From assembly GCA_013791705.1 (NCBI GenBank), contig VMTF01000060.1, forward strand, positions 1 to 32,419: a stretch of DNA of 32,419 nt, read 5' to 3'. The notes below the pieces were generated by a model. The model searched no databases. It was not told the DNA's origin and saw only the letters and a list, made by a program, of their open reading frames with translations. Positions 2,748 to 32,419 of this stretch are shown piece after piece. The stretch is from Sphingomonadales bacterium (GTDB taxonomy: Bacteria > Pseudomonadota > Alphaproteobacteria > Sphingomonadales > Sphingomonadaceae). Each line of letters opens with the position of its first letter. Within the stretch, counting starts at the first letter, position 1. Made by a program: the position numbers and the translations under genes.

Positions 2748-3179
2748 TTACTCCGGCACGTTCACCGTATGCGACACCTCCTCGCCGCGCTCGGCGATGC
2801 GCCAGCCGGCAGGCGTGCGGACGAACACATCAATGTACCACAAGTGATAGGACATCTGGCGAACCGATCCGTCTTCGAGCCGCAACCCCATCGGATTGGT
2901 GCAGGTCGTCCGGCCGGTCGCGCGGTCGCCGTCGAGCCGGACCTGGCTGGTCGAGATGATGTGCTGCTGATAGGCGAACGCGGGCAGGGCTTCGGCGAGG
3001 AAGCGCTTGATCTCGGGATAGCGCCCTTTGGGTCCGCCGAACACGCGGTAGTCGATCACCGCATCGGGCGTGAACACCGCATCGAGATCGTCCCAGCGGT
3101 GCTGGTCGATCGCATGGCAATAGGCAACCATCAGGTCTTCGATCTCGCGGCGGTCGGACAGTTCCTGCAGCGTCAGCAT
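2748..3179 (-). CDS. SnoaL-like / NTF2-fold protein 1
   Basis: A 143-residue cytoplasmic protein of the SnoaL-like NTF2 fold. It has the usual pattern for the family: an N-terminal helix with REIEDLMVAYCHAIDQHRW, an FTPDAVIDY strand, a central HIISTSQVRLDGDRA strand pair and the C-terminal GWRIAERGEE. This fold includes ketosteroid isomerase, scytalone dehydratase and limonene-epoxide hydrolase as well as proteins with no known activity, so the reaction is open. It starts 18 nt after the upstream uncharacterised gene and is probably co-transcribed with the sulfotransferase. A weak AAAGG lies before its ATG. Confidence 0.85.
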   Translation of the reverse strand: MLTLQELSDRREIEDLMVAYCHAIDQHRWDDLDAVFTPDAVIDYRVFGGPKGRYPEIKRFLAEALPAFAYQQHIISTSQVRLDGDRATGRTTCTNPMGLRLEDGSVRQMSYHLWYIDVFVRTPAGWRIAERGEEVSHTVNVPE

Positions 3180-3197
3180 GACTTGGGCCTTTCGCGT

Positions 3198-4187
3198 TCA
3201 GCGGCGCTCGATCCGGGTCTGCGGAATGGCCAGATCCTGCGCGTCGATCGTGCGATAGAGCAAGGCGCCGCGCCGCCGCCCGGTGGCGATGGCCGGACCG
3301 GCGAGGCCGGCGGCATCCGGCGCGAGCCGGATCGTCACCGCCCGATCCGGGCCGGTTCCGGCACCGCGATCGTCGATCCGGCCCAGCGCGGCATAGGGAG
3401 GCGGGAGCGGTTCGAGCCAGTGGGTATAAGCGGAAACCGACCACGTCGCGCAGGCCACCGCCGGGCGTTCGATCACCAGCACCTCGTCCTCGCCGAGATC
3501 GTAGTAGCCCGGATAGTAGTGCGTGCCGAGGTCGCCGAGGTAGGCGGCGGCGAGTTCCGGCGGAGGCGTGGTGAAGGCGTTGGGCGTTTCGGCCATGCGC
3601 GCGCTCCAGCGGGCGAACTGGCGCGCCATCGCGGCAACCCACCCGCCGGCCATGGCCAAATTCCTGTTCCCGGCCGGAAGCGGGAGCGCCGTGCCGTCCG
3701 CAAAAGTCAGGTGCATATCGGCGGGCCGCCGTCCGGGCGGGCGCAGCAATTCTCGCACCATCAGCAGGCGGGTGTTGCCGGTCGTCTTCAACTGGCCGTC
3801 CGGGCCGATATCGAGCGAAAAATCGCCCGTCCGGAACACGGTGTAATCTTCCAGCAGCAGCACGCCTTCCGGGGTGACCGAATAGGTGCCGACGCCCAGC
3901 CGCTCGACATCGTTGAGGCTGCCGGTGAGCCGGTAGCCGCGCCCCGGTTCGAGCGAGGCGAGCCACATCCGGTAATCGAGGAATGGCCCGCCGAGGCGCG
4001 GCCAGGCCCGCTTGAGACCGCTGCCCATGTCCTCATAGGCCAGAAATCCGTCGTGCAGCGCGGAGACGAGCAGCCGGGCCACATAGGGGCCGGCCTCTTC
4101 CGCCGCGAGCGGATCGGGCGCGGCGGCGCGCAGTTCGGCTTCGACATCGGCGAGCCCGCCGGCGAGCGCGCCCCAATCAAGCGTCAT
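3198..4187 (-). CDS. Uncharacterised protein cotranslated with sulfotransferase (possibly DUF1214-like)
   Basis: A 329-residue protein. I do not recognise it firmly. Segments such as GTYSVTPEGVLLLED, GNTRLLMVRELLRPPG and THWLEPLPPPYAALG recall the beta-rich DUF1254/DUF1214 proteins, but this is a weak resemblance from memory. There is no signal peptide or membrane segment. The ORF track runs on to 4499, but the extra part lies inside the sulfotransferase. The ATG at 4187 overlaps the last 11 nt of the sulfotransferase gene, which implies translational coupling. The partnership with the sulfotransferase is the best clue to its job. Confidence 0.8.
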   Translation of the reverse strand: MTLDWGALAGGLADVEAELRAAAPDPLAAEEAGPYVARLLVSALHDGFLAYEDMGSGLKRAWPRLGGPFLDYRMWLASLEPGRGYRLTGSLNDVERLGVGTYSVTPEGVLLLEDYTVFRTGDFSLDIGPDGQLKTTGNTRLLMVRELLRPPGRRPADMHLTFADGTALPLPAGNRNLAMAGGWVAAMARQFARWSARMAETPNAFTTPPPELAAAYLGDLGTHYYPGYYDLGEDEVLVIERPAVACATWSVSAYTHWLEPLPPPYAALGRIDDRGAGTGPDRAVTIRLAPDAAGLAGPAIATGRRRGALLYRTIDAQDLAIPQTRIERR

Positions 4188-5370
4188 GGGCGGACCTGGC
4201 CAGCCCTTGCGCCTCGCGCGGGATATCGAAGCGGCGCATATAGTCCCCGAAACGCTCGGCCACTTCATCGCCATCGAGCCCATAGTCCGCCAGCGCATAG
4301 GGGTTGCTGCCGCGCTTGCCCTTGGGGTTTTCCTGCCGCCAGCGGGTAACCGCATCGCGCACCGCATCAGGCGTATCGATCCCGAGCCCGGCATGGGCGC
4401 GCTCCATTTCGGCCATCGGCTCTTCGACCAGCCGATAGTAATCGATGTGGGCCACTTTCGCGCCATCTGGCGACGCATCGAAGCGCATGATCCCATCAAT
4501 GTGGCGCGAAATGAAGTGCAGCATTTGCGCGCCGACCACCCTGGGATCGCTGCCCTCGCTGCGCGGCGCGCGGAAGGTGTGGGTGAGCCGGCAGATCGAG
4601 GCGAGCACCTGCACCGGATCGCGGTGCGTCATCACGAAGCGCGCGTCGGGATGGGCCTCCACGATCTTGTCCAGCGCGACCACGTGGTTCGGATATTTGA
4701 GCGCCCACGGCTTTTTCGGCCCGCGCCATTGCAGCAACTGGAGCTGGCGTTTGTGCACGCGATAGGCTGCAGCAAAATCGGCGTGGTCCATCACCGTATC
4801 GAAGAACGTCGGCACGTTGAGGAAATTGTGAAAGCCGACCGCCGAGAAGGTCTGGCTGAGGAACATGTGGCATTCTTCCGACCCGGTGGGATCGGTGAGG
4901 TGCATCGCATCGAAATCTGGCACGAGATCGCGGTGGGCCTGGGTGCGCCCCACTTCCTCGGCGATGCGGCGGCGGACCGATTCGGGATCGGCGCCCGGCG
5001 GCGGCGAGGGATCGTTGGCTTCCCACGTGCGAATCAGCCGGAAGCGGGTGTCGCGATCGAACAGGTACTGGAAGTAGGTGGTGCCCGACCGCGGCAGGCC
5101 GGTCAGGAATACCGGGCGTTCGATTGGTTCGGCCAGGATTTCGGGATGTTCGGCCACCCATTTGAGCCCCTGCAGGCGGTGGGTGATATTGGTGATCAAC
5201 AGTTCGCGGGTGATCGCCACACCCGTTTCGTTCAGCCGCGCATCGCGGTTGATCCCATCGACCAGCGCATCGAGATTGCCCGCGAACAGTTCGCGTTCAC
5301 TGTCGGCAAAGCCGGCGCGGCGTTCGGCTTCGGCGTGGATGGCCGCAGCATTGAACGGCTGATTGCCCAT
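4177..5370 (-). CDS. Sulfotransferase (PAPS-dependent, Sulfotransfer_3 type)
   Basis: A 397-residue cytoplasmic sulfotransferase expected to move a sulfonate group from PAPS to a hydroxyl. The 5'-phosphosulfate loop is clear: FLTGLPRSGTTYFQ with GLPRSGTT at residues 91-98. The 3'-phosphate-binding part is seen in FVMTHRDPVQVLASI (about 245-259), with the expected Arg and Ser. The length is normal for bacterial members. The ATG at 5370 has GGGAG about 11 nt upstream. An 18-bp palindrome lies 49 nt upstream, directly after the TetR stop. The next gene overlaps its end by 11 nt. The acceptor is unknown. In a catabolic cluster the sulfate could mask, export or activate a hydroxyl. Confidence 0.93.
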   Translation of the reverse strand: MGNQPFNAAAIHAEAERRAGFADSERELFAGNLDALVDGINRDARLNETGVAITRELLITNITHRLQGLKWVAEHPEILAEPIERPVFLTGLPRSGTTYFQYLFDRDTRFRLIRTWEANDPSPPPGADPESVRRRIAEEVGRTQAHRDLVPDFDAMHLTDPTGSEECHMFLSQTFSAVGFHNFLNVPTFFDTVMDHADFAAAYRVHKRQLQLLQWRGPKKPWALKYPNHVVALDKIVEAHPDARFVMTHRDPVQVLASICRLTHTFRAPRSEGSDPRVVGAQMLHFISRHIDGIMRFDASPDGAKVAHIDYYRLVEEPMAEMERAHAGLGIDTPDAVRDAVTRWRQENPKGKRGSNPYALADYGLDGDEVAERFGDYMRRFDIPREAQGLARSAHDA

Positions 5371-5418
5371 GATTGTTTCCGCTCCCGCGATCAGGCGTCT
5401 GCTCGTGCACCGCCATCT

Positions 5419-5436
5419 TTATACATTAGTGGATAA
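5419..5436. promoter_or_regulatory. Probable TetR operator and -10 element before the sulfotransferase
   Basis: On the minus strand this reads TTATCCACTAATGTATAA. It equals its own reverse complement at 14 of 18 positions (TTAT-CA-TA-TG-ATAA), a typical size and symmetry for a TetR-family operator. It lies between the TetR stop and the sulfotransferase start and is AT-rich in a GC-rich region. A -10-like TATAAA (with one base beyond) overlaps the site. No good -35 is seen. Confidence 0.6.
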
Positions 5437-6045
5437 TCAATCTCCGACATTGAACGGAGTTGTCAAGATGCCCTTGTGCAGCATCGTTTCGAAGGTGACG
5501 GCGAAACTGTCTGCCTGGGCACGGCGCTTGGCCGGATCCTGCTCGAGCGAGACGCACAGGATCGCCGCGAACCACATCGCCAAGGTGATCGATGCCGCAT
5601 GGGTGGTCGGAATGCCCTCGCACAGCATGCCCTTCTCCGCCGCATCGCGATAAAACGCGCAGGACCGGGCGAATATCGGGTTTTCGTTCGGATCATCGCG
5701 CATCAGGCCGAGCAGGATCGACCGGACCAGTTCGGGATTGTCGACCGCCAGACCGGCCACGAAGCCATAGGGATCGGGGATTTCGCTGGTATTGCCGCTT
5801 GCCAGTTCGGCCAGTTGTTCGAACACGAAGCGCTGGGCTTCTTCCTGCAGGATCTCTTGCGTGGCGAAATGGTGATAGACCGTACGCCGGGTGGTTCCAG
5901 CATGTTCGGCGACGGCGCTGACCGTCAGCCCGAGCTGGCCGTGTTCGGACCATAACGACACCGCGCTCGACAGTAACCGCTGCCGTGTGCGTTCCCCATT
6001 TGCGCGCGTCCGCCGCCGTGTCTCGACCTTCTTTACCGCCACCAT
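5437..6045 (-). CDS. TetR-family regulator 1
   Basis: A 202-residue repressor-type protein. After a basic N-terminus (KKVETRRRTRANGERTRQRL) it has a TetR helix-turn-helix at about residues 40-60 (LTVSAVAEHAGTTRRTVYHHF). The C-terminal ligand domain is divergent, as is normal. The next gene downstream is the sulfotransferase, with a palindromic site between them, and Gfo/Idh is 87 nt upstream. It most likely controls the sulfotransferase operon and possibly Gfo/Idh and itself. The ligand is unknown, probably a CoA-linked or hydrophobic substrate of the cluster. Confidence 0.9.
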   Translation of the reverse strand: MVAVKKVETRRRTRANGERTRQRLLSSAVSLWSEHGQLGLTVSAVAEHAGTTRRTVYHHFATQEILQEEAQRFVFEQLAELASGNTSEIPDPYGFVAGLAVDNPELVRSILLGLMRDDPNENPIFARSCAFYRDAAEKGMLCEGIPTTHAASITLAMWFAAILCVSLEQDPAKRRAQADSFAVTFETMLHKGILTTPFNVGD

Positions 6046-11098: not shown

Positions 11099-11366
11099 GA
11101 TATACCCTTCCTTGGATCGATCCTCAGCAGCCGCACCTTGACGCCGGGGCGACCGGCCCCGGCCGCGCGCGGCCTGAATACTGCCGATAACCGCTTCCAC
11201 GCGAGGCGGCCATGGGCTTTTTTCGCGAAATCGCCGACATGATGTAATTTGCTGCAGTGCATCGTCCATCCGCAAGCAGGTGTTGCACCCGCGCCGGGAC
11301 TGTGATGAACGCAACGCAGCACCCGCAGGGGAGAGATGCCATGCGCGTGCAGGGGAGACTGGCCGA

Positions 11367-13004
11367 GTGACTACAACCGCCGATACGGCAACGAGGCCGG
11401 GCGTGAGCATCGCGGCGCCGCTGCGCACGCCGCTGTTCCGCCGGATCTGGCTGGCCAGCCTGCTGTCCAACCTCGGGTTCATGGTGCTCTCGGTCGGCGC
11501 GGCCTGGGCCATGACGGTACTCACCCCCGATGCCACGATGGTGGCGCTGGTCCAGACCGCCATGATGCTGCCGATGATGCTGCTGTCGCTGGTCGCCGGT
11601 GCGGTTGCCGACATGTATGACCGCCGCAAGGTTACCATCGCGGCGCTGTGCATGTCGCTTGCCGCCAGCGCGGGGCTGGCCCTGTGCGGGTTTTCCGGCC
11701 TCATCACGCCCTGGCTGCTGCTTGGCTTCTGCTTCCTGGTCGGCTCGGCCATGGCACTGTTCAGCCCCGCCTGGCAGGCTTCCGTGGGCGAGCAGGTTCC
11801 GCGCGAGGTGCTCGCCCAGGCGGTTGCGCTCAATTCGATCAGCTTCAACATTGCCCGCAGCTTCGGCCCGGCGCTGGGCGGGATCATCGTTTCGGTCGGC
11901 GGCGGCAGCTCCGCGTTCGCCACCACGGCGGCGTGCTACCTGCCGCTGATCGCCGTGATGGTGCTGTGGCGGCGCATCCCGGTTCCCTCGCGCCTCCCGC
12001 CCGAACGAATCGACCGCGCGATCAATGCCGGGGTGCGCTATGTGATCCATTCCCCCCAGATCCGGACCGTGTTGCTGCGCACTTTCGTGATGGGGATGGC
12101 CGGCAGCTCGGTCCATGCGCTGATGCCGCTGATCGCGCGCGACATTCTGCACGGCAACGCCAAGACCTTCGGCCTGCTGCTCGGCAGCCTCGGCATCGGC
12201 GCGATCATCGGCGCGCTGGCGATCAGCCGCATCCGGCGCCACCTGTCCGAAGAGGCGATCATTTCCTCCGCCGCCGTGCTGATGGGCGCGACCTTCGTGG
12301 TGATCGCCACGAGCGGCTCGGTCGTGCTGACCTCGTTCGCGCTGATGTGCACCGGCATGGGCTGGATGGTCGCGCTGACGCTGTTCAACGTGCTGGTGCA
12401 GACTTCCGCGCCGCGCTGGGTTTCGGGACGGCTGCTGGCCGCGTTCGGGACCGCGATCGCCGGCGGCGTGGCCATAGGAAGCTGGATGTGGGGCCAGGTG
12501 GCGCAGAACCACGGCGTCGCCAATACGATGCTGATCTCGGCCGCGGCGCTGGCCGGCACCGTGCTGTTCGCGTTCATCCTGCGGATGCCGGCGATGGCCG
12601 AGGCGGATCTGGAACCGGTGCTGCCGCAAGACCCCGAAGTGAACCTTGCGATCACCAACCGCAGCGGCCCGATCGTGATCGAACTGGTCTATCACGTCTG
12701 CGCCGACGACGCGCGCGAGTTCTATGACGCCATGCAGAAAATGCGCGCGATCCGGCACCGCAACGGCGGATTCGCGTGGTCGATCTCGCGCAATATCCGC
12801 GATCCGGAAATATGGGTCGAGCGCTATCAGTGCCCGACCTGGATCGATTACCTGCGCCAGCGATCGCGCAGCACGCCGGAGGAAATCCGCGCCCATGCCC
12901 GCGCCCGCGCCTTGCTCAAGCCCGGCACCGACGTGGAAGTGCGGCGCCTGCTGGAGCGGCCGTTCGGCTCGGTCCGCTGGAAGGAAAACGCGCTCGACGT
13001 CTAG
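11367..13004 (+). CDS. MFS transporter (MFS_3 type) with soluble C-terminal domain
   Basis: A 545-residue inner-membrane transporter. The first 400 or so residues contain the repeated hydrophobic helices of a major facilitator, beginning LFRRIWLASLLSNLGFMVLS, with a DMYDRRKV signature loop between helices 2 and 3. The last 130 residues (from VIELVYHVCADD) form a soluble domain with a ferredoxin-like look, typical of the MFS_3 (PF05977) subgroup related to EntS. The start is a GTG at 11367 with GGGGAGA 8 nt upstream; the longer ORF start at 11280 is unsupported. The epoxide hydrolase follows after 24 nt, so they are probably one operon. Export of a toxic intermediate or uptake are both possible. 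Confidence 0.92.
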   Translation: MTTTADTATRPGVSIAAPLRTPLFRRIWLASLLSNLGFMVLSVGAAWAMTVLTPDATMVALVQTAMMLPMMLLSLVAGAVADMYDRRKVTIAALCMSLAASAGLALCGFSGLITPWLLLGFCFLVGSAMALFSPAWQASVGEQVPREVLAQAVALNSISFNIARSFGPALGGIIVSVGGGSSAFATTAACYLPLIAVMVLWRRIPVPSRLPPERIDRAINAGVRYVIHSPQIRTVLLRTFVMGMAGSSVHALMPLIARDILHGNAKTFGLLLGSLGIGAIIGALAISRIRRHLSEEAIISSAAVLMGATFVVIATSGSVVLTSFALMCTGMGWMVALTLFNVLVQTSAPRWVSGRLLAAFGTAIAGGVAIGSWMWGQVAQNHGVANTMLISAAALAGTVLFAFILRMPAMAEADLEPVLPQDPEVNLAITNRSGPIVIELVYHVCADDAREFYDAMQKMRAIRHRNGGFAWSISRNIRDPEIWVERYQCPTWIDYLRQRSRSTPEEIRAHARARALLKPGTDVEVRRLLERPFGSVRWKENALDV

Positions 13005-13028
13005 CGCGGCACCGTGGAGGGAGAGAAC

Positions 13029-14156
13029 ATGACCGTCCGACCGTTCGAAGTGGCCGTGCCGCAAGCCCGGCTCGACGCGATCCGCGCCCGGGTGGAACAT
13101 GGCTGGATCGGCTATGCGCCGGACGACGACGCCGACTGGAAATACGGCACGGACGCCGCCTATCTGGAAGAATTCCGGCGCTATTGGCTGGATAGCCATG
13201 ACTGGCGCCAGGCCGAGGCGGAGCTGAACCGGTTCCCGCAATTCCTCGCCCGCGTGGACGATTGCGACGTGCATTTCTACCACGTCAAAGGTTCCGGCAC
13301 GAACCCGTTCCCGGTGATCCTGACCCATGGCTGGCCGGGCTCGGTGGTCGAATTCCTCGACGTGATCGACCGGCTGGCCAACCCCGGCAATCATGGCGGC
13401 GAGCCGGAACAGGGCCTGACGGTGGTGGTCCCCTCGCTGCCCGGCTATGGCTTTTCGTCCCGCCCGGCGCGGCCGATCGGGCCGATGCGCACCGCCGCGC
13501 TGTGGCGCAAGCTGATGACCGAGGTGCTGGGCTATTCGCGCTTCGGCGCACAAGGCGGAGACTGGGGCGCAGGGGTTTCGCTCGCGCTTGGCCGCGATCA
13601 TGCCGATGTCGTCGCGGCGATCCACCTCAACCTGATCATCGGCCTGCCGCTGCCCGGCGGCGACGCGGAGACCCAGGCGTGGCAGGCCGAGCGGGCGCAG
13701 TTCAGGTCGCGCGAATCGGCCTATGCCGACATCCATGCGACCAGGCCGCAAACGATCGCGCTGGCGCTGGCCGACAGTCCGCTCGGCTTTGCCGGCTGGG
13801 TGCTGGAAAAGTGCCGAGCCTGGTCCGATTGCCACGGCGATCTGGACCGCCGCTTCGGCAAGGACCGGCTGCTGACCAATATCATGACGTATCTGGTCAA
13901 CGACGCGGTCGGCTCCGCGATCTGGATGTATCATGGTTCCCGCGCCGAAACCCCGCCGCAGCGGCGGGTCGAAGTGCCGACCGGCTTTGCCGCCTTTCCC
14001 GCCGAACCGTTCACCCCGCCGCCGCGCCGCGCCGTGCAGGCCGCGCTCAATATCGTGCGCTGGAACGAATTGCCGGCCGGAGGGCATTTTGCCGCCTGGG
14101 AGGAGCCGGAGCTGTTTGCCGGCGAGGTCCGATCGTTCTTCGCGGAGTGGCGCTGA
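13029..14156 (+). CDS. Epoxide hydrolase (EHN domain plus alpha/beta hydrolase)
   Basis: A 375-residue epoxide hydrolase converting an epoxide to a diol. The N-terminal EHN domain begins VRPFEVAVPQARLDAIRARV and is followed by the hydrolase fold with the HGWPGS oxyanion-hole motif near residue 99. The nucleophilic aspartate lies in GGDWG near 177, and the catalytic histidine is in GGHFAAWEEPE near the C-terminus. All hallmarks of the microsomal/juvenile-hormone-type class are present. The ATG at 13029 follows GGAGGGAGAG. It is 24 nt behind the MFS gene and converges with the DUF2889 gene, 23 nt apart. Confidence 0.94.
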   Translation: MTVRPFEVAVPQARLDAIRARVEHGWIGYAPDDDADWKYGTDAAYLEEFRRYWLDSHDWRQAEAELNRFPQFLARVDDCDVHFYHVKGSGTNPFPVILTHGWPGSVVEFLDVIDRLANPGNHGGEPEQGLTVVVPSLPGYGFSSRPARPIGPMRTAALWRKLMTEVLGYSRFGAQGGDWGAGVSLALGRDHADVVAAIHLNLIIGLPLPGGDAETQAWQAERAQFRSRESAYADIHATRPQTIALALADSPLGFAGWVLEKCRAWSDCHGDLDRRFGKDRLLTNIMTYLVNDAVGSAIWMYHGSRAETPPQRRVEVPTGFAAFPAEPFTPPPRRAVQAALNIVRWNELPAGGHFAAWEEPELFAGEVRSFFAEWR

Positions 14157-14181: not shown

Positions 14182-14971
14182 AGCCGGCGAGGCCGCGCTC
14201 CTGCGCGACTTGCGCGATCCGTTCCGCCAGCGGCGCCGGACCGTCGCGATAATCGCGGACATCCATCGTGCAGGCGGCCTGCGGCGAGCGTTCGGGCTGG
14301 AAGGTGAAACAGGCGCCGACCGATTGCGGGATCAGATCGGCAGTCGGCACCACATCGTAGGAAAATCCGCGCCCGCCCGAGATGAAGACGGCGCGGCGCA
14401 GCACCCGCGCCCGTTCGCGTTCGACCGGGGACAGGTCGGCCTCCCAGACCTTGAGCTTGCGCAGCGACAGGCCCTGGCGGGGACCGGGCGAAACAATTAC
14501 CGAATCGCGCAGTTCCCAGACGATCTCGCGCTGGCCGTTGCAATAGAGTTCGGCGTGCTGGGTCGGTTCGGTCTCGTCGCTGGCAAAGCACGAATAAAGC
14601 GTCGGCGCATCGTCGAGCGCGTGGGCGGCGGCGAGCAGCGTCAGATCGTGCATGTGAGTGCAGTGCGAATAGGGGCTGTCGACTTCGGCAAGGGCGGCGA
14701 GCCGGGCGCCCTTCATGCGCTGACTGAGGTGGGTCGCCGCCAGCGGGCAGGTCGACCACGGCCAGCGCAGCGCCTCCGCCCTGAAATCGGTCACGAATGT
14801 GCCGTCGTGCTCGATTTCGACAGTGAACCGATGCATGTCGTCCTCCACATCGGCGCGGACCAGGCCGGGGCGGGGATCGATCAACTGGTTGCGGCGCAGG
14901 CCGCCTTCGCCGGGCCGGATCAGCAGCGGGCGCAAGGCGTCGGACGAATTGTCGGTGCCAGTTTCTGTCAT
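14180..14971 (-). CDS. DUF2889-family protein
   Basis: A 263-residue protein of the DUF2889 type. The recognisable core is DDMHRFTVEIEHDG, then RWPWSTCPLAATHL and CTHMHDLTLLAAAHA, with conserved Cys and His residues that could bind metal or act in catalysis. The function of the family is not known to me. It has no signal peptide. Its ATG overlaps the stop of the upstream alpha/beta hydrolase by ATGA, so the two are translated together. In this setting it may act on the same substrate as the hydrolase. Confidence 0.87.
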   Translation of the reverse strand: MTETGTDNSSDALRPLLIRPGEGGLRRNQLIDPRPGLVRADVEDDMHRFTVEIEHDGTFVTDFRAEALRWPWSTCPLAATHLSQRMKGARLAALAEVDSPYSHCTHMHDLTLLAAAHALDDAPTLYSCFASDETEPTQHAELYCNGQREIVWELRDSVIVSPGPRQGLSLRKLKVWEADLSPVERERARVLRRAVFISGGRGFSYDVVPTADLIPQSVGACFTFQPERSPQAACTMDVRDYRDGPAPLAERIAQVAQERGLAG

Positions 14972-15873
14972 GCCCAGGCCTCCAGCAAAGTGCGCAGCGC
15001 GGCGACGAGGGCCAGCGGCTGATCGACCATCACATGGTGGTAGGCTTCCGGAATGGCAATGAAGGGCGTGCCGGCCGGGGCCGTGTGCCGCATCCGTTGC
15101 TCCATCGCGCCGCCGCTCAGCCACGACCGTTCGCCGCGGATCAGCGCCAGCGGCACTTTGGCCCCGGCGAGGTCCGCCCAGGAATCGCCAAGGTCGCGGG
15201 CCTCCATCAGGCGCGGATCGAACCGCCAGGCAAAGTTGCCGTCATCCTGCCGGACCACGCCGAGCCGGGCGATGTAATCGGCGACATAGATGTTTTCGCA
15301 AGGCTGCGGCGGCGACAGGCGGAACCGGTCGAGCGCGGCGGACAGGGAGGGATAGGTGCGCCCGGTGTGACGCGGCGGTTTCGCGGTCATTTCCGGGCCG
15401 GGCAAGCCGGTATCGACGACGATCGCCGCGCGCAGCCGGTCAGGGAAACGCGCCGCGAGCCCGAATACCGGCATCCCGCCGGCCGAGTGCCCGATCATCA
15501 CCGGCGGCCCCGCCAGCAGCGCGCCGCCCGCCTCGGCGGCGGCCAGGCCTTCGCGAATGTAAAGCTCGGTGGAATAGGCGGCGCGCCGGTCCGAAGCGCC
15601 CATCCCGCTGAGCGAAAACGCCACGACCCGGTAGTCGGCGGCGAACAGCGGGGCGAGGAAGCTCCACCATCCCAGATGGGCGGCATTGCCATGGAAGAAT
15701 ACCAACCCCGGCTTGCCGCGTTCGCCCCACGCGCGGCAATCGATCGCCGCACCGTCGACCGTGACGCTATAACTCTCGAACGGGACGGCCAGCGCGCGGG
15801 TGAACCATTCCGGCGCGGGCGGGGAAGCGCCTTCCAGGCCGAGCAGCGGCGGCTCCATGTTGTCTTCAATCAT
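14968..15873 (-). CDS. Alpha/beta hydrolase 1
   Basis: A hydrolase of about 301 residues. It shows the oxyanion-hole FFHGNAAHLGWW, the nucleophile elbow GHSAGG near residue 128, and a late histidine in YHHVMVDQP. It should cleave an ester, lactone or C-C bond. The start is uncertain. The ORF track begins at 16011, but the sequence becomes hydrolase-like only later. ATGs at 15885, 15873 and 15858 are all possible, and I chose 15873, which has a G-rich stretch about 12 nt upstream. It overlaps the DUF2889 gene by ATGA and is divergent from the amidohydrolase pair. Confidence 0.88.
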   Translation of the reverse strand: MIEDNMEPPLLGLEGASPPAPEWFTRALAVPFESYSVTVDGAAIDCRAWGERGKPGLVFFHGNAAHLGWWSFLAPLFAADYRVVAFSLSGMGASDRRAAYSTELYIREGLAAAEAGGALLAGPPVMIGHSAGGMPVFGLAARFPDRLRAAIVVDTGLPGPEMTAKPPRHTGRTYPSLSAALDRFRLSPPQPCENIYVADYIARLGVVRQDDGNFAWRFDPRLMEARDLGDSWADLAGAKVPLALIRGERSWLSGGAMEQRMRHTAPAGTPFIAIPEAYHHVMVDQPLALVAALRTLLEAWA

Positions 15874-16179
15874 CTTCGGCCGCATCCCCCTGCCCGGCAA
15901 CTTGACCGCGTCCCTATCCGCCCCGATCCCGGCCGCACAGGCGGGCAAGCAATGATCACGGTCGCGATATGGCGCGAATTGCGCAACGCCGGCAACGGTC
16001 CAGGGGAACAAACTCCCCGGCTCAAGTGTTGCTATTGCAAGTCGGAATCGACTGTACTGCCCGTCCGGGCACTCGACAGTTATCGTTTCTGACGCTATGT
16101 CAATTAAATCCGGGCCGGGACTCTCGCGGGGAGCGCGATCGAGTCACATGGATCCGGGCGTCGCCGAGGAGAGCCTGAG
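15874..16179. promoter_or_regulatory. 306-nt divergent control region
   Basis: No gene is seen here. For the plus-strand amidohydrolases a possible promoter is TTGCTA, 18 nt, TGTACT within 16028-16060. For the minus-strand hydrolase a consensus -35 TTGACA is found at 16098-16103, without a clear -10. Between them lies a bulged inverted repeat: ACTGT (16051-16055) and TGCCCG pair with CGGGCA and ACAGT (16076-16080), which could be an operator. All calls are by eye. Confidence 0.4.
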
Positions 16180-17379: not shown

Positions 17380-17409
17380 ACCATAACCCGAAAATTGAAA
17401 GGCCAGACC

Positions 17410-18741
17410 ATGAAGGCAGAAGATCTCATTATCGCCAGCGTCGACGATCATATCGTCGAGCCCCCGCACCTGTGGGACGCGCACCTCAGCGCTCAGCACA
17501 AGCATCTCGCCCCGAAAATGCTGCGTGACGAAAGCGGCGCCGATTTCTGGGTGTTCGAAGGACGCCGCGCGGCGCAGGGCGGCCTCAACGCCGTCGTCGG
17601 CCGCCCGCCCGAGGAATACGGCATGGAGCCGATCTCGCTGGACGAGATGCGCAAGGGCGTGTGGGATATCGATGCCCGCATCGACGACATGAACGTCAAC
17701 GGCATCCTCGCCTCGATCAACTTCCCCAGCATCCTCACCTTCGACGGCGGCCTGTTCCTCGGCTTCGAGAACAAGGAAAATGCCAAGATCCTGCTCTCGG
17801 CCTACAACGACTGGCACATCGACGAATGGTGCGCGAAGTATCCGGGCCGGAACATCCCCAACGCGATCGTGCCCTACTGGGATATCGACGCGACCGTTGC
17901 CGAAATCGAACGCGTCGCGAAGAAGGGCTGCCACGCGATCTCGTTCTGCGACAACCCCTCGGTCAAGGGCCTGCAGAGCATCCACGACGAATACTGGAAC
18001 CCGCTGTGGAAGGTCTGCGCCGATAACGAGGTGGCGATCAATATCCACATCGGTTCGGGCGCGCAGGCCCCGCACGCCTCGATGAAGTCGCCGATCGACG
18101 CCTGGATCACGACGATGCCGATTTCGATCGTCAATTCGGCGGCCGACTGGCTGCACCTGTCGGCACTGCAGCAGTATCCGCTGAAGATCGCCCTTTCGGA
18201 AGGTGGCATCGGCTGGATTCCGTACTTCCTCGAACGCGCCGACTTCACCAATGCGCACCACAGCGCCTGGACCCACGCCAAGACCAACTTCGGCAACAAG
18301 AAGCCGAGCGAAGTGTTCCGCGAACACTTCCTCACCTGCTTCATCGAAGACAAGTTCGGCCTCGCCAATCTCGAAGCCATCGGTGAGGACTTCGTTGCTT
18401 ACGAATGCGACTATCCGCACTCCGACACGCAGTGGCCTTACGTTCCCGAACACCTGTTCGAGACCGTGAAGCACCTGACCGACTCGCAGATCGACAAGGT
18501 CACGCACCTCAACGCGATGAAGTTCTACAACTTCGACGCCTTCGGGATGATGGGTGGACGCGAGAACTGCACGGTCAAGGCGCTGCGCGCGAAGGCCGCA
18601 CACGTTTCGACCGAACCGATGACCCAGAGCGGCGCCGCGCCGCTCAAGGCCGGCGAGCAGCCGCGCCGCGTCACCTCGGGCGACATCGTTGCGATGTTCG
18701 CCTCGGTGAACGCCAAGGACCAGGAGCGCGTCGACGCCTGA
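17410..18741 (+). CDS. Amidohydrolase_2 family protein B
   Basis: A 443-residue paralogue of protein A. It has SVDDHIVEPPHLWDAHL at the N-terminus, INIHIGSG in the middle and YECDYPHSDTQWP near residue 332. Compared with A it has a longer C-terminal tail. The ORF track starts at a TTG five codons earlier; the ATG at 17410 has AAAGG 8 nt upstream. A and B are almost certainly co-transcribed and end at a strong terminator 28 nt downstream. They may form a mixed complex or act on successive intermediates. Confidence 0.9.
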   Translation: MKAEDLIIASVDDHIVEPPHLWDAHLSAQHKHLAPKMLRDESGADFWVFEGRRAAQGGLNAVVGRPPEEYGMEPISLDEMRKGVWDIDARIDDMNVNGILASINFPSILTFDGGLFLGFENKENAKILLSAYNDWHIDEWCAKYPGRNIPNAIVPYWDIDATVAEIERVAKKGCHAISFCDNPSVKGLQSIHDEYWNPLWKVCADNEVAINIHIGSGAQAPHASMKSPIDAWITTMPISIVNSAADWLHLSALQQYPLKIALSEGGIGWIPYFLERADFTNAHHSAWTHAKTNFGNKKPSEVFREHFLTCFIEDKFGLANLEAIGEDFVAYECDYPHSDTQWPYVPEHLFETVKHLTDSQIDKVTHLNAMKFYNFDAFGMMGGRENCTVKALRAKAAHVSTEPMTQSGAAPLKAGEQPRRVTSGDIVAMFASVNAKDQERVDA

Positions 18742-27534: not shown

Positions 27535-28350
27535 TCAGCGCATGTCCGCGCCGCCGTTCGCGCGCAGCGTTTCGCCGGTGACGAAGCCGCTCGCGTCGGC
27601 AGCGAGGAACAGGATCACGCGCGCGATGTCGATCGGTTGCCCGATCCGCCCGAGCGCGGCATTGGCGGCCCGCGCGGCGAACAGTTCCTGTTTCGCGTCC
27701 TCGATCACCGAACCGTCCTCGCGCGTGAAGCGATAGCTTACCATCGGGGTATCGATGAAGCCGGGTGCAACCGCATTGACCCGGACCCCGGCAGCGCCGA
27801 CTTCCGCCGCCAGCGTGCGGGTGAGCGCGTTCACCCCCGCCTTGGTCAGTGAATAGACCGCGAGGCCCGGAGCCGGCGATTCGGCGCCTTGCGACGAGAT
27901 GTTGATGATCGAGCCCCGCCCTTCCGGCACCATCCGGCGGGCGGCGGCGGCCGAGCCGAAGAACACGCCCTTGAGATTGATCGCGATCAGGCGGTCGAGC
28001 GTCGCCTCATCGACATCGACCAGCAGCGCCGGGGCCGCCGCCACGCCGGCGGCATTGAGCCAGACATCGATCGGCGCGATCGCCCGCGCCGCATCGGCCA
28101 GCCGCTCCACTTGCGTCCGGTCGGCGACATCGGTCGGGATCGCCATCGCCGCGCCGCCCGGTTCGGCGCCCAGTTCGGCGGCGATTTCAGCAAGCGCGGC
28201 GGCGTTGCGGTCTGCCAGCACGACCCGTGCGCCAGCCCGCGCGAACACCCGCGCCGCCTCCCGGCCGATCCCGGACGCGGCCCCGGTCACCACCGCGAGC
28301 TTGCCGGTGAGTGCATAAGCGGCGGACTGCTGATTTGTGGCCATGGTCAT
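27535..28350 (-). CDS. Short-chain dehydrogenase/reductase (SDR 4)
   Basis: A 271-residue classical SDR: TGAASGIG, an Asp after strand 2 (VVLADRN, favouring NAD), WLNAAG for NNAG, serine in NISSQGAES and YSLTK, and the ending TGETLRANGGADMR. The ATG at 28350 has GGGAG 7 nt upstream. It is divergent from the IclR gene across 155 nt, a typical regulator-target pair. Confidence 0.93.
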   Translation of the reverse strand: MTMATNQQSAAYALTGKLAVVTGAASGIGREAARVFARAGARVVLADRNAAALAEIAAELGAEPGGAAMAIPTDVADRTQVERLADAARAIAPIDVWLNAAGVAAAPALLVDVDEATLDRLIAINLKGVFFGSAAAARRMVPEGRGSIINISSQGAESPAPGLAVYSLTKAGVNALTRTLAAEVGAAGVRVNAVAPGFIDTPMVSYRFTREDGSVIEDAKQELFAARAANAALGRIGQPIDIARVILFLAADASGFVTGETLRANGGADMR

Positions 28351-28505: not shown

Positions 28506-29312
28506 GTGAGCCTGATCGCGCGCGCCGGTTCGGAGCCCGGCCATCTGGGCTTTCGCGTGCGCCTGCCGACCGACCGCCGCAATATTTCGCGCTCGGCTGC
28601 CCGCGCGCTTGATGTGCTCGAATTCTTCGGAACGGCGCGCCGGCCGCTGCGGGCGGTGGAGATCGCGCGCGAGCTTGAAATGTCGCCGTCGAGCGCGAAC
28701 CAGTTGCTCAAGACGATGGTCGATTCGGCGCACCTCGTGTTCGACGCGCGGGAGAAGACCTACCTCCCCTCGCCGCGCCTGGCGGCGTTCGGGAGCTGGA
28801 TGGGCGGCATCTATGGCGGCACCGGCCCGCTGCACGATCTGGTTGACGCGGTGCGCGCGCGCACCGGAATGGTCGTGACGATCACCACACCCAACGACCT
28901 GTCGATGCAGATCGTCGATCTGGCCGGCCCGGAAGGGCAACCGGCGCAGCGCGGCCTGCAGGTGCCGCTGTTCGGCTCGGCCACCGGCAGTGCCTATCTG
29001 GCCGGGCTCGACGATGCCGAAGTGCGCCGCCTGGCGCGGCGCGCCCGCATTCCCGATACCGACCTGCCCGCGATCCATGCGGTGCTCGACCAGATTCGCG
29101 CGGTCGGCCTGGCCGATGGCCCGAGCGGCGGTCCGGGCAACTGGTCGCTCGCGATGGTGCTGCCGCTGCTTCTGGCCGGTTTCCCCTCGGTGCTGGGGCT
29201 CGCAGGTCCCGCCGCAGACGTCCGGGCGAACATGGCCCAGTTGACCGCCGCGATGCGCGAGGCCGTTGCGGTGCATTTCAATCGCTCACGCGCTCGCGCA
29301 CGAAGTCGGTGA
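28506..29312 (+). CDS. IclR-family regulator
   Basis: A 268-residue IclR-type regulator. The winged helix-turn-helix covers about residues 28-90 (SRSAARALDVLEFF, then VEIARELEMSPSSANQLLKTM), followed by the effector domain with GSATGSAYLAGLDD. The first 27 residues form an extra N-terminal tail. The start is a GTG at 28506 with AAGG 8 nt upstream, so the exact N-terminus is less certain. It probably controls the divergent SDR 4. Its last 35 nt overlap, tail to tail, with the hydrolase gene of the opposite strand. Confidence 0.88.
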   Translation: MSLIARAGSEPGHLGFRVRLPTDRRNISRSAARALDVLEFFGTARRPLRAVEIARELEMSPSSANQLLKTMVDSAHLVFDAREKTYLPSPRLAAFGSWMGGIYGGTGPLHDLVDAVRARTGMVVTITTPNDLSMQIVDLAGPEGQPAQRGLQVPLFGSATGSAYLAGLDDAEVRRLARRARIPDTDLPAIHAVLDQIRAVGLADGPSGGPGNWSLAMVLPLLLAGFPSVLGLAGPAADVRANMAQLTAAMREAVAVHFNRSRARARSR

Positions 29313-30972: not shown

Positions 30973-32199
30973 TTACTCCTTGATTTGTTCAAGTGATGCC
31001 TCAGGCGTACGCGACCACAGGCGCGCCGTCACGGACTGTTGTTCTTCCGCCTTGCGAAGCTGTTCGGCCAACCCTTCGGCCACCCGGCCCTTGCCGCGCT
31101 TTTTCAGTTCGGGAATGACGCGGGTGCCGAGCAGCTCGATCGACTTCATCACCGCTTCGTGCGGCAGGTAGCCGAAGTTCAGGTAGCACAGCACCTGATC
31201 GCCCCCGATTTCCTCGTAGCGCTCCAGCTTGCGGATGCATTCCTCCGGCGTGCCGACCACCACCATGTCCTCGCGATCGAACTCGGTGATGTCGAACTCG
31301 CCGCGCGCCTGGGCGGAAAGCAGCGGAAAGGCCTTTTCCTGCTCTTCGGGCGAGAGGTGCGCCATTTCCCACTTGAGGTGGAATTCGGCGAGGCCCTTGT
31401 ACCACCACCACATCGATTCCCACAGGCGGTTGGTCCCGAAGCTTTCGCGCGATTCGACGCAGTGGACCAGTGTGTAGGCGCCGACCTTGTTGGTGTGGAC
31501 CCCGGTCAGCGGGACGGCGTTCTGCTGCGCCTCGCGGTAGGCCGCGATCACCTTTTGCAGCGCATCGAGCGGCTGCATGATCGAGAAGCACAGCAGCCCG
31601 CAGCCGTTTTCACCGGCCATCGTTGCGCTAGACGGGGTCGCCGCCGCGATCCACGCCGGCGGGTGCGGAAACTGGTAGGGCTTGGGCGTGACCATCCGCT
31701 TGGGAAAGTCGAGATATTCCGAGTGTTCCTCGTAGTATTCCTGCTCCCACATGCCGACGACCGTGCGCGCGGCGGCCTTGAGCTTGTCCTTGCTCGCCGG
31801 GATATCGACGCCGAACGCGGCCTGCTCCATCGGGGTCGAGCGCCCCATCCCCCAGATCGCCCGTCCGCCCGACAGCAGATCGACCGTCGCGACCTTTTCG
31901 GCCACGCGCGCCGGATGGATGAACTCGTGCGGCATCAGCGCGACGCCGAAGCCGAGCTTGATGTTCTTCGTCACTTGCGAAAGCGCGCCGAGCACCACTT
32001 CGTTCGACGGCATGTGACTGCGGTTCTCGCGGAAATGGTGCTCCACGCACCACACCGCCTCGAAGCCCAACTGGTCCGCCAGGACGATCTGCGCAATGTT
32101 GTCCTTGTAGACCACGCGCTCGGCCGCGCGCTGCCCCCAGGGATGCGCACCGGCCCATGGGCGCGGCACGTCGAACTCGTAAAGGAGGCCCAGTTCCAT
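30973..32199 (-). CDS. LLM-class (luciferase-like) flavin-dependent monooxygenase
   Basis: A 408-residue TIM-barrel flavoprotein of the bacterial luciferase family. It begins MELGLLYEFDVPRPW and contains EAVWCVEHHF, VALMPHEFIHPARVAEKVAT, WGMGRSTPM and VVVGTPEECIRKL, all classic family landmarks. It uses reduced FMN (or F420 in some relatives) and oxygen. Related enzymes carry out Baeyer-Villiger oxidation, epoxidation or C-S cleavage. No flavin reductase is seen nearby. The ATG at 32199 has GGGAG 7 nt upstream. It is the first gene of an operon with SDR 5 and hydrolase 3. Confidence 0.93.
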   Translation of the reverse strand: MELGLLYEFDVPRPWAGAHPWGQRAAERVVYKDNIAQIVLADQLGFEAVWCVEHHFRENRSHMPSNEVVLGALSQVTKNIKLGFGVALMPHEFIHPARVAEKVATVDLLSGGRAIWGMGRSTPMEQAAFGVDIPASKDKLKAAARTVVGMWEQEYYEEHSEYLDFPKRMVTPKPYQFPHPPAWIAAATPSSATMAGENGCGLLCFSIMQPLDALQKVIAAYREAQQNAVPLTGVHTNKVGAYTLVHCVESRESFGTNRLWESMWWWYKGLAEFHLKWEMAHLSPEEQEKAFPLLSAQARGEFDITEFDREDMVVVGTPEECIRKLERYEEIGGDQVLCYLNFGYLPHEAVMKSIELLGTRVIPELKKRGKGRVAEGLAEQLRKAEEQQSVTARLWSRTPEASLEQIKE

Positions 32200-32335
32200 C
32201 GTTATCTCCCGGATTCTGTTCTTGGGAGGGAGCATAGGGACGAGACCGGCCGCCGCACAATGGCGACCCGCGAAATCCGTGATTACGCATGTTTGTGTGG
32301 TGCGGCGAACCCCTCCGGCCGCAGAGTCTTTGGTT

Positions 32336-32360
32336 GGGGGGGGGGGGGGGGGGGGGGGGG
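32336..32360. repeat. 25-nt G homopolymer near the window end
   Basis: A run of 25 G residues is followed by a short C run and GC-only sequence to the window end. As with 1719-1747, this looks like a read or assembly artefact in a GC-rich stretch. The 136 nt between it and the LLM gene should hold the LLM promoter, but I see no convincing one. Confidence 0.75.
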
Positions 32361-32419
32361 AGCCGGCGCCCCCCCCCAAACCCCGGCAGAGCGGCGCCCG
32401 CCCGCCGCCCGGGCGGAGC

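Follow-up and report, generated by a model that had tools for sequence, protein, structure and literature searches.

What does a 3′-phosphoadenosine-5′-phosphosulfate (PAPS)-dependent sulfotransferase (ST) do among catabolic genes, when sulfonation is costly and is normally taken as decoration or detoxification? The question is raised by positions 2748-6045 of a 32,419-nucleotide stretch of DNA from a Sphingomonadales bacterium (VMTF01000060.1; hereafter, the window), which spans the full length of contig C186 in an assembly of 3.09 Mb. An earlier note had described at this place a TetR-controlled operon in which an ST gene overlaps that of an unrecognised 329-residue protein (D329) and precedes a SnoaL-like gene. 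The open reading frames (ORFs) for all four proteins were confirmed on the minus strand, and the surroundings are of the catabolic type that had been claimed, encoding an acyl-CoA ligase, a CoA-transferase, enoyl-CoA hydratases, amidohydrolases, an epoxide hydrolase, a monooxygenase and short-chain dehydrogenases/reductases (SDRs) (Table 1). Comparison across related genomes shows that the ST and D329 genes form a co-inherited two-gene module. Our tentative reading, to which we give slightly less than an even chance, is that this module works in two steps within an oxidative pathway, probably for alicyclic or terpenoid compounds: a hydroxylated intermediate is sulfonated, and the resulting sulfate ester is then processed.

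The sulfotransferase and its DUF1214-like partner

The identification of the ST holds in every motif. The protein scores 109.1 bits against PF13469 (cut-off 27), and R94, G96, T97 and T98 of its GLPRSGTT loop, K225, R250 and S258 of the 3′-phosphate site, and H157 and E166 (the catalytic His/Glu) are invariant over 19 relatives, so that, on the strength of these residues, it is expected to be an active PAPS ST; an APS kinase is also encoded in the genome. The nearest solved structures found by sequence in the PDB, 2zq5 (E 1.1e-44) and 2z6v (E 3e-43), were deposited as uncharacterized proteins and are presumably mycobacterial Stf proteins. They share with the window ST the Sulfotransfer_3 family, the PAPS loop, the 3′-phosphate site and the conserved His and Glu, whereas the window ST belongs to a distinct clade (with those of Novosphingobium sp. 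RL4 and of another genome of the same family, G198; 100/100 support on the ST tree) and is obligately paired with D329.

D329 could be called unrecognised in one respect: it has no Pfam or NCBIfam match, and a search of the whole genome with PF06742 (DUF1214) likewise gave no match. The description fails at one remove, since relatives in other Sphingomonadaceae, at ~19-32% identity, exceed the PF06742 cut-off; for example, D329 matches a protein of genome G073 (L037) at E 1.8e-20, and that protein passes PF06742. Structure prediction, which had been proposed for this protein, gave a confident AlphaFold (AF2) model from 72 aligned relatives (pLDDT 90.2, pTM 0.86), for which the best Foldseek match was 6ANS of Burkholderia cenocepacia (TMq 0.85, E 1.1e-25), followed by the VPA0735 structures of Vibrio parahaemolyticus (E 6.6e-9). 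6ANS is also found by sequence with a profile of the DUF1214-like family (E 2.4e-158). As judged from these alignments and the model, D329 is a divergent DUF1214-like protein. It has the same fold as the solved DUF1214 structures but differs from them in forming a distinct, mainly Novosphingobium subfamily, present in 14 of 196 Novosphingobium genomes including the window's own. Invariant in this subfamily are Y35, R38, Y85, R96, R140, R145, N203, Y224, E259 and R312, despite its divergence from the main DUF1214 family. The viral contigs searched held no relatives of D329.

Each of the other 13 Novosphingobium genomes with the subfamily has the ST gene (about 50-72% identity) immediately ahead of that for D329; at one locus (L170) the ST is near a contig end and reads in two frames. 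A simple gene-density model that ignores phylogeny puts the chance of such pairing at ~1e-28. The pair is also complete in G198, and in RL4 it is carried on a megaplasmid (NZ_CP141945). A 4-nt overlap between the two genes is common among the relatives, and the ST and D329 are probably translationally coupled.

The flanking SnoaL and TetR genes

In the earlier note, the SnoaL-like protein was the possible lyase, and co-occurrence of the three genes was the proposed check. An orthologue of SnoaL occurs in 42 of the 195 other Novosphingobium genomes, yet in none of the 13 that carry ST-D329. Its occurrence is linked instead to that of the main DUF1214 subfamily: it is present in 29 of 48 genomes with that subfamily versus 13 of 147 without it (Fisher p 2e-12, which is indicative, as related genomes are not independent). 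The SnoaL gene is thus a local addition and no conserved part of the module, and because the orthologue is absent from all 13 other ST-D329 genomes, a role as dedicated lyase is unlikely. That TetR, ST, D329 and SnoaL are one evolved unit, with SnoaL removing the sulfate, would agree with their order and short spacing in the window; besides, 10 of 31 Sphingomonadaceae loci have a SnoaL gene at most 400 bp from another DUF1214 gene. The protein is, moreover, a sequence relative of the bile-acid 7-alpha-dehydratase BaiE (4l8p, E 3.4e-7). Among what we take to be the catalytic residues of BaiE (Tyr30, His83 and Asp106), the first two align with Y20 and H73 of SnoaL, whereas Asp106 aligns with N95, and the genomic setting differs. 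Given the distribution of the orthologue and the variable regulator, we regard the four-gene unit as highly improbable.

In relatives, ST-D329 has no conserved TetR neighbour, which leaves control by TetR without comparative support; regulation of the ST by this protein is something that we only infer. The likely operator of the earlier note was rejected, as neither the stretch between TetR and ST nor the region upstream of TetR has an inverted repeat of at least 8 bp, and the best near-palindromes there were not above shuffles (p about 0.4 and 0.98). With SnoaL orthologues missing from all 13 relatives, TetR not conserved and the operator unsupported, the stable unit is ST-D329 and not TetR-ST-D329-SnoaL.

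Genes around the pair

The neighbourhoods of the pair in Novosphingobium are oxidative and epoxide- or diol-forming, with no recurrent exporter. At 5 of the 13 loci, about 80-580 bp separate the ST from a divergently transcribed gene for an EHN-type epoxide hydrolase, whose product is 40-42% identical to the window epoxide hydrolase. EHN genes number only two in the window's genome, and one lies 7.6 kb from ST-D329. Near the pair at two loci, L176 and L180, are homologues of the window's luciferase-like monooxygenase (77% and 81% identical, respectively) and of its IclR-type regulator (59% and 55%), and L180 has in addition an SDR 50% identical to the one encoded beside that regulator. Pfam counts over 109 neighbour proteins of ST-D329 gave 11 SDRs, 5 EHN proteins, 4 P450s, 3 luciferase-like proteins and 2 proteins of the major facilitator superfamily (MFS). 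Judged from these relatives, the window's epoxide hydrolase and luciferase-like monooxygenase would be pathway partners of ST-D329. This setting of epoxide hydrolases, P450s and flavin monooxygenases is part of the case for sulfation in catabolism.

The same counts bear on masking or solubilisation, in which the ST would sulfate a toxic or hydrophobic alcohol for export or solubility and D329 would carry or bind the sulfate ester and be no lyase. Alcohols are commonly detoxified by sulfation, the window encodes an MFS_3 exporter, and D329 lacks many residues that the main family conserves, all of which would suit such a role. An exporter is not recurrent, however, with the two MFS proteins among 109 neighbours and no counterpart of the window MFS in the related ST-D329 loci, and a strictly coupled partner would be unnecessary. 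Masking is therefore less favoured than the two-step module, and we consider it rather unlikely.

The SDR gene nearest to SnoaL, a possible fourth gene, may extend the cluster beyond the range given by the earlier note. It is separated from SnoaL by a gap of ~142 nt that contains a dispersed repeat; an SDR gene directly follows D329 in 2 of the 13 relatives (L169 and L181).

Table 1 Features of the window discussed in the text
Feature	Position	Strand	Evidence and remarks
Acyl-CoA ligase	161-1642
SDR oxidoreductase	1829-2719 (start probably 2605)	minus	adh_short_C2 E 8.2e-56
SnoaL_4 protein, BaiE-like	2748-3179	minus	PF13577 E 4.1e-32
D329, divergent DUF1214-like, 329 residues	3198-4187	minus	11-nt overlap with ST
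PAPS-dependent ST, Sulfotransfer_3, 397 aa	4177-5370	minus	PF13469 E 4.9e-31
TetR-family regulator	5437-6045	minus	TetR_N E 1.3e-10; upstream of ST, same direction
MFS_3 exporter	11280-13004
Epoxide hydrolase (EHN + alpha/beta hydrolase)	13014-14156	plus	EHN E 6.6e-32
Alpha/beta hydrolase	14968-16011	minus
Amidohydrolase	17395-18741
SDR	27535-28350	minus	adh_short_C2 E 3.2e-57; homologue near ST-D329 elsewhere
IclR-type regulator	28506-29312	plus	HTH_IclR E 1.5e-11; homologue near ST-D329 elsewhere
Luciferase-like flavin monooxygenase	30973-32379	minus	Bac_luciferase E 1.4e-50

The wider DUF1214-sulfotransferase family

Association with STs extends well beyond the subfamily of D329. A scan of a genome collection with an alignment of DUF1214-like proteins, in which loci were not chosen by the presence of an ST, yielded ~500 relatives, and the best 80 loci (L067-L146) are mostly from Pseudomonadota, Myxococcota and Bacteroidota. 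In this best-80 set, an ST gene lies within 400 bp of 54 of 83 DUF1214-like genes and within 5 kb of 61, and SDR genes are frequent beside the pairs. A Tsukamurella plasmid (plasmid 22 of Tsukamurella tyrosinosolvens), on which DUF1214-like, SDR and ST genes stand in a row, adds Actinomycetota. The window resembles such triads in that its DUF1214-like and ST genes are adjacent on one strand, but its SDR lies past SnoaL and the repeat-bearing gap, the order of the pair is reversed and both partners belong to separate subfamilies. In six loci the DUF1214-ST pair is adjoined by cysD, cysN/C or cysQ, which supports a real PAPS demand and suggests that PAPS flux matters there. On plasmids of Tsukamurella and Paraburkholderia, the DUF1214-ST cluster includes cysD/cysN/cysC or cysQ genes (L150 4061-11063 and L151 7962-14478); examples of the triad with cysD/N/C/Q are those of Tsukamurella plasmid 22 and of Paraburkholderia sprentiae. 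An ST locked to one partner fold, and in some lineages to genes for PAPS supply, would suggest that sulfation has a working part in bacterial catabolism.

A single origin of all D329-linked STs was rejected, since 13 changes of this label are required on the ST tree, and the partnership has therefore been made or broken several times. The DUF1214 gene precedes the ST in 50 of the 54 adjacent pairs, whereas the window subfamily has the ST first. This order, together with the occurrence of DUF1214 genes that have no ST nearby, would fit a D329 that acts before the ST by making or presenting the hydroxyl acceptor, with sulfation later. The order of genes tells barely anything about the order of reactions, however, and in the window's own subfamily it runs the other way; we hold this alternative to be improbable.

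A DUF1214 gene on plasmid pNL2 of Novosphingobium aromaticivorans (L147 1-13899) has in its vicinity cysQ, FadD3, and genes for a steroid Delta-isomerase and an extradiol dioxygenase, which hints at a part for the main DUF1214 subfamily in steroid-like catabolism. Alkyl-sulfatase genes near ST-less DUF1214 genes (L084 and L099) were too few to use. We also suspected the mycobacterial cholesterol-region genes Rv3529c-Rv3531c, of which Rv3531c has a KstR motif in its promoter (PMC1995591), of forming such a triad. As the closest stand-in that could be tested, we took three successive genes of a Mycolicibacterium plasmid (L159), for an ST, an SDR and a hypothetical protein. The third protein has no Pfam match and aligned to the DUF1214-like profile with an hhalign probability of 0.1%, and the suspicion was dropped.

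A possible route through a sulfate ester

For the two-step module, we infer the substrate and the product steps as follows. The luciferase-like monooxygenase or a P450, and then the epoxide hydrolase, would create a hydroxyl on a hydrophobic, alicyclic or terpenoid-like intermediate, and the ST would sulfonate that hydroxyl. In the cytosol, D329 would then act on the sulfate ester; in the simplest case it would take off the sulfate (through elimination or substitution at carbon), and the desulfated product, an alkene, ketone or inverted alcohol, would be handed to an SDR. If the sulfate is indeed a leaving group, D329 is a better candidate for the lyase than SnoaL. Precedent for sulfate as a leaving group is provided by the ST-thioesterase pair of CurM and olefin synthase, which the earlier note had invoked. 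The likeness extends to the proposed chemistry only (hydroxyl sulfonation, then elimination), whereas the window enzymes are stand-alone proteins of a catabolic region; no polyketide synthase or thioesterase gene was found, and no CurM structure appeared among PDB matches with E up to 0.1.

In a general form of this proposal, DUF1214-like proteins would be the sulfate-eliminating or -displacing partners of PAPS STs, and bacteria of at least four phyla would activate unreactive alcohols by sulfonation, with sulfate as the leaving group, when they degrade compounds of alicyclic, terpenoid or steroid-like type. This general form is in our view unlikely, and we are just as doubtful of the leaving-group version for ST-D329. 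The pairing with an ST gives DUF1214, for which structures have been solved, a role that can be tested.

Several points weigh against a two-step module. D329 has lost the main-family residues N250, Q252, N255, D262, N297 and H304, and with so many conserved positions gone it may, on this comparison, bind rather than catalyse. Roughly one in three DUF1214-like genes of the best-80 set has no ST nearby. We know of no DUF1214 protein with an established activity; the literature searched names DUF1214 only in work on another subject, and the searches found neither a DUF1214-ST link nor an experiment on the ST, D329 or other proteins here. Finally, the neighbours of some pairs are largely unrelated to such a pathway: glycoside hydrolase genes surround the pair in RL4, and DNA-repair genes that in G198, though a P450 gene follows D329 in the latter.

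The RL4 locus would also suit a housekeeping or envelope role, in which a membrane lipid, carotenoid, sterol-like lipid or glycan would be the target of the ST and the pair would stand beside catabolic genes by accident. The DUF1214-ST-SDR triads of Myxococcota and Bacteroidota, in neighbourhoods that need not be catabolic, would suit it too. Such a role sits poorly with the patchy distribution of the Novosphingobium pair and its megaplasmid location in RL4, and with its recurrence beside EHN proteins, P450s, luciferase-like enzymes and SDRs; we judge its probability to be low.

Assembly and annotation of the window

A dispersed intergenic repeat, GCATCCGCCAARGGCTTGCGGCRCC, flanks the SDR gene nearest to SnoaL, with copies on the plus strand at 1688-1712 and 2716-2740, and occurs at 15 sites in the genome. 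It is part of a ~66 bp unit, of which contig C138 has a tandem array. The copies outside the window, 13 in number, are all close to a contig end, and arrays of the repeat therefore probably break the assembly. Homopolymers of G/C, about 25-29 bp long, lie beside the repeat (1719-1747) and near the contig end (32336-32360); they are possibly assembly artefacts or mark a misjoin, so that linkage of the acyl-CoA ligase is provisional. Two further ORFs, u28347 and u15034, were rejected as antisense to real genes, namely those of the IclR-type regulator and the alpha/beta hydrolase.

Other sulfotransferases in the genome and beyond

Elsewhere in the genome, an ST gene on contig C284 (L057 9878-12417) is directly preceded by a gene of the alkyl-sulfatase family (PF14863) and followed by genes for an SDR, a zinc-dependent alcohol dehydrogenase (Zn-ADH) and a second SDR. 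Sphingobium sp. RAC03 (L160 8676-11101) also has an ST gene beside a PF14863 gene, with an SDR and a Zn-ADH. The ST and alkyl-sulfatase of these loci are a candidate pair that puts sulfate on and takes it off, perhaps inverting an alcohol, and by analogy the C284 layout may parallel ST-D329 in this respect. On contig C46 (L056 2061-5507), the ST gene lies between those of an amidohydrolase, 50% identical to the amidohydrolase of Table 1, and an NAD-dependent epimerase. The STs on C46 and C9 adjoin epimerase/dehydratase-type genes, and STs coupled to a second enzyme acting on carbon or sulfate look like a habit of this organism. In Planktothrix agardhii (L158 3596-11128), an ST of the same family forms the terminal domain of a type I polyketide synthase (29% identity, E 8e-57).

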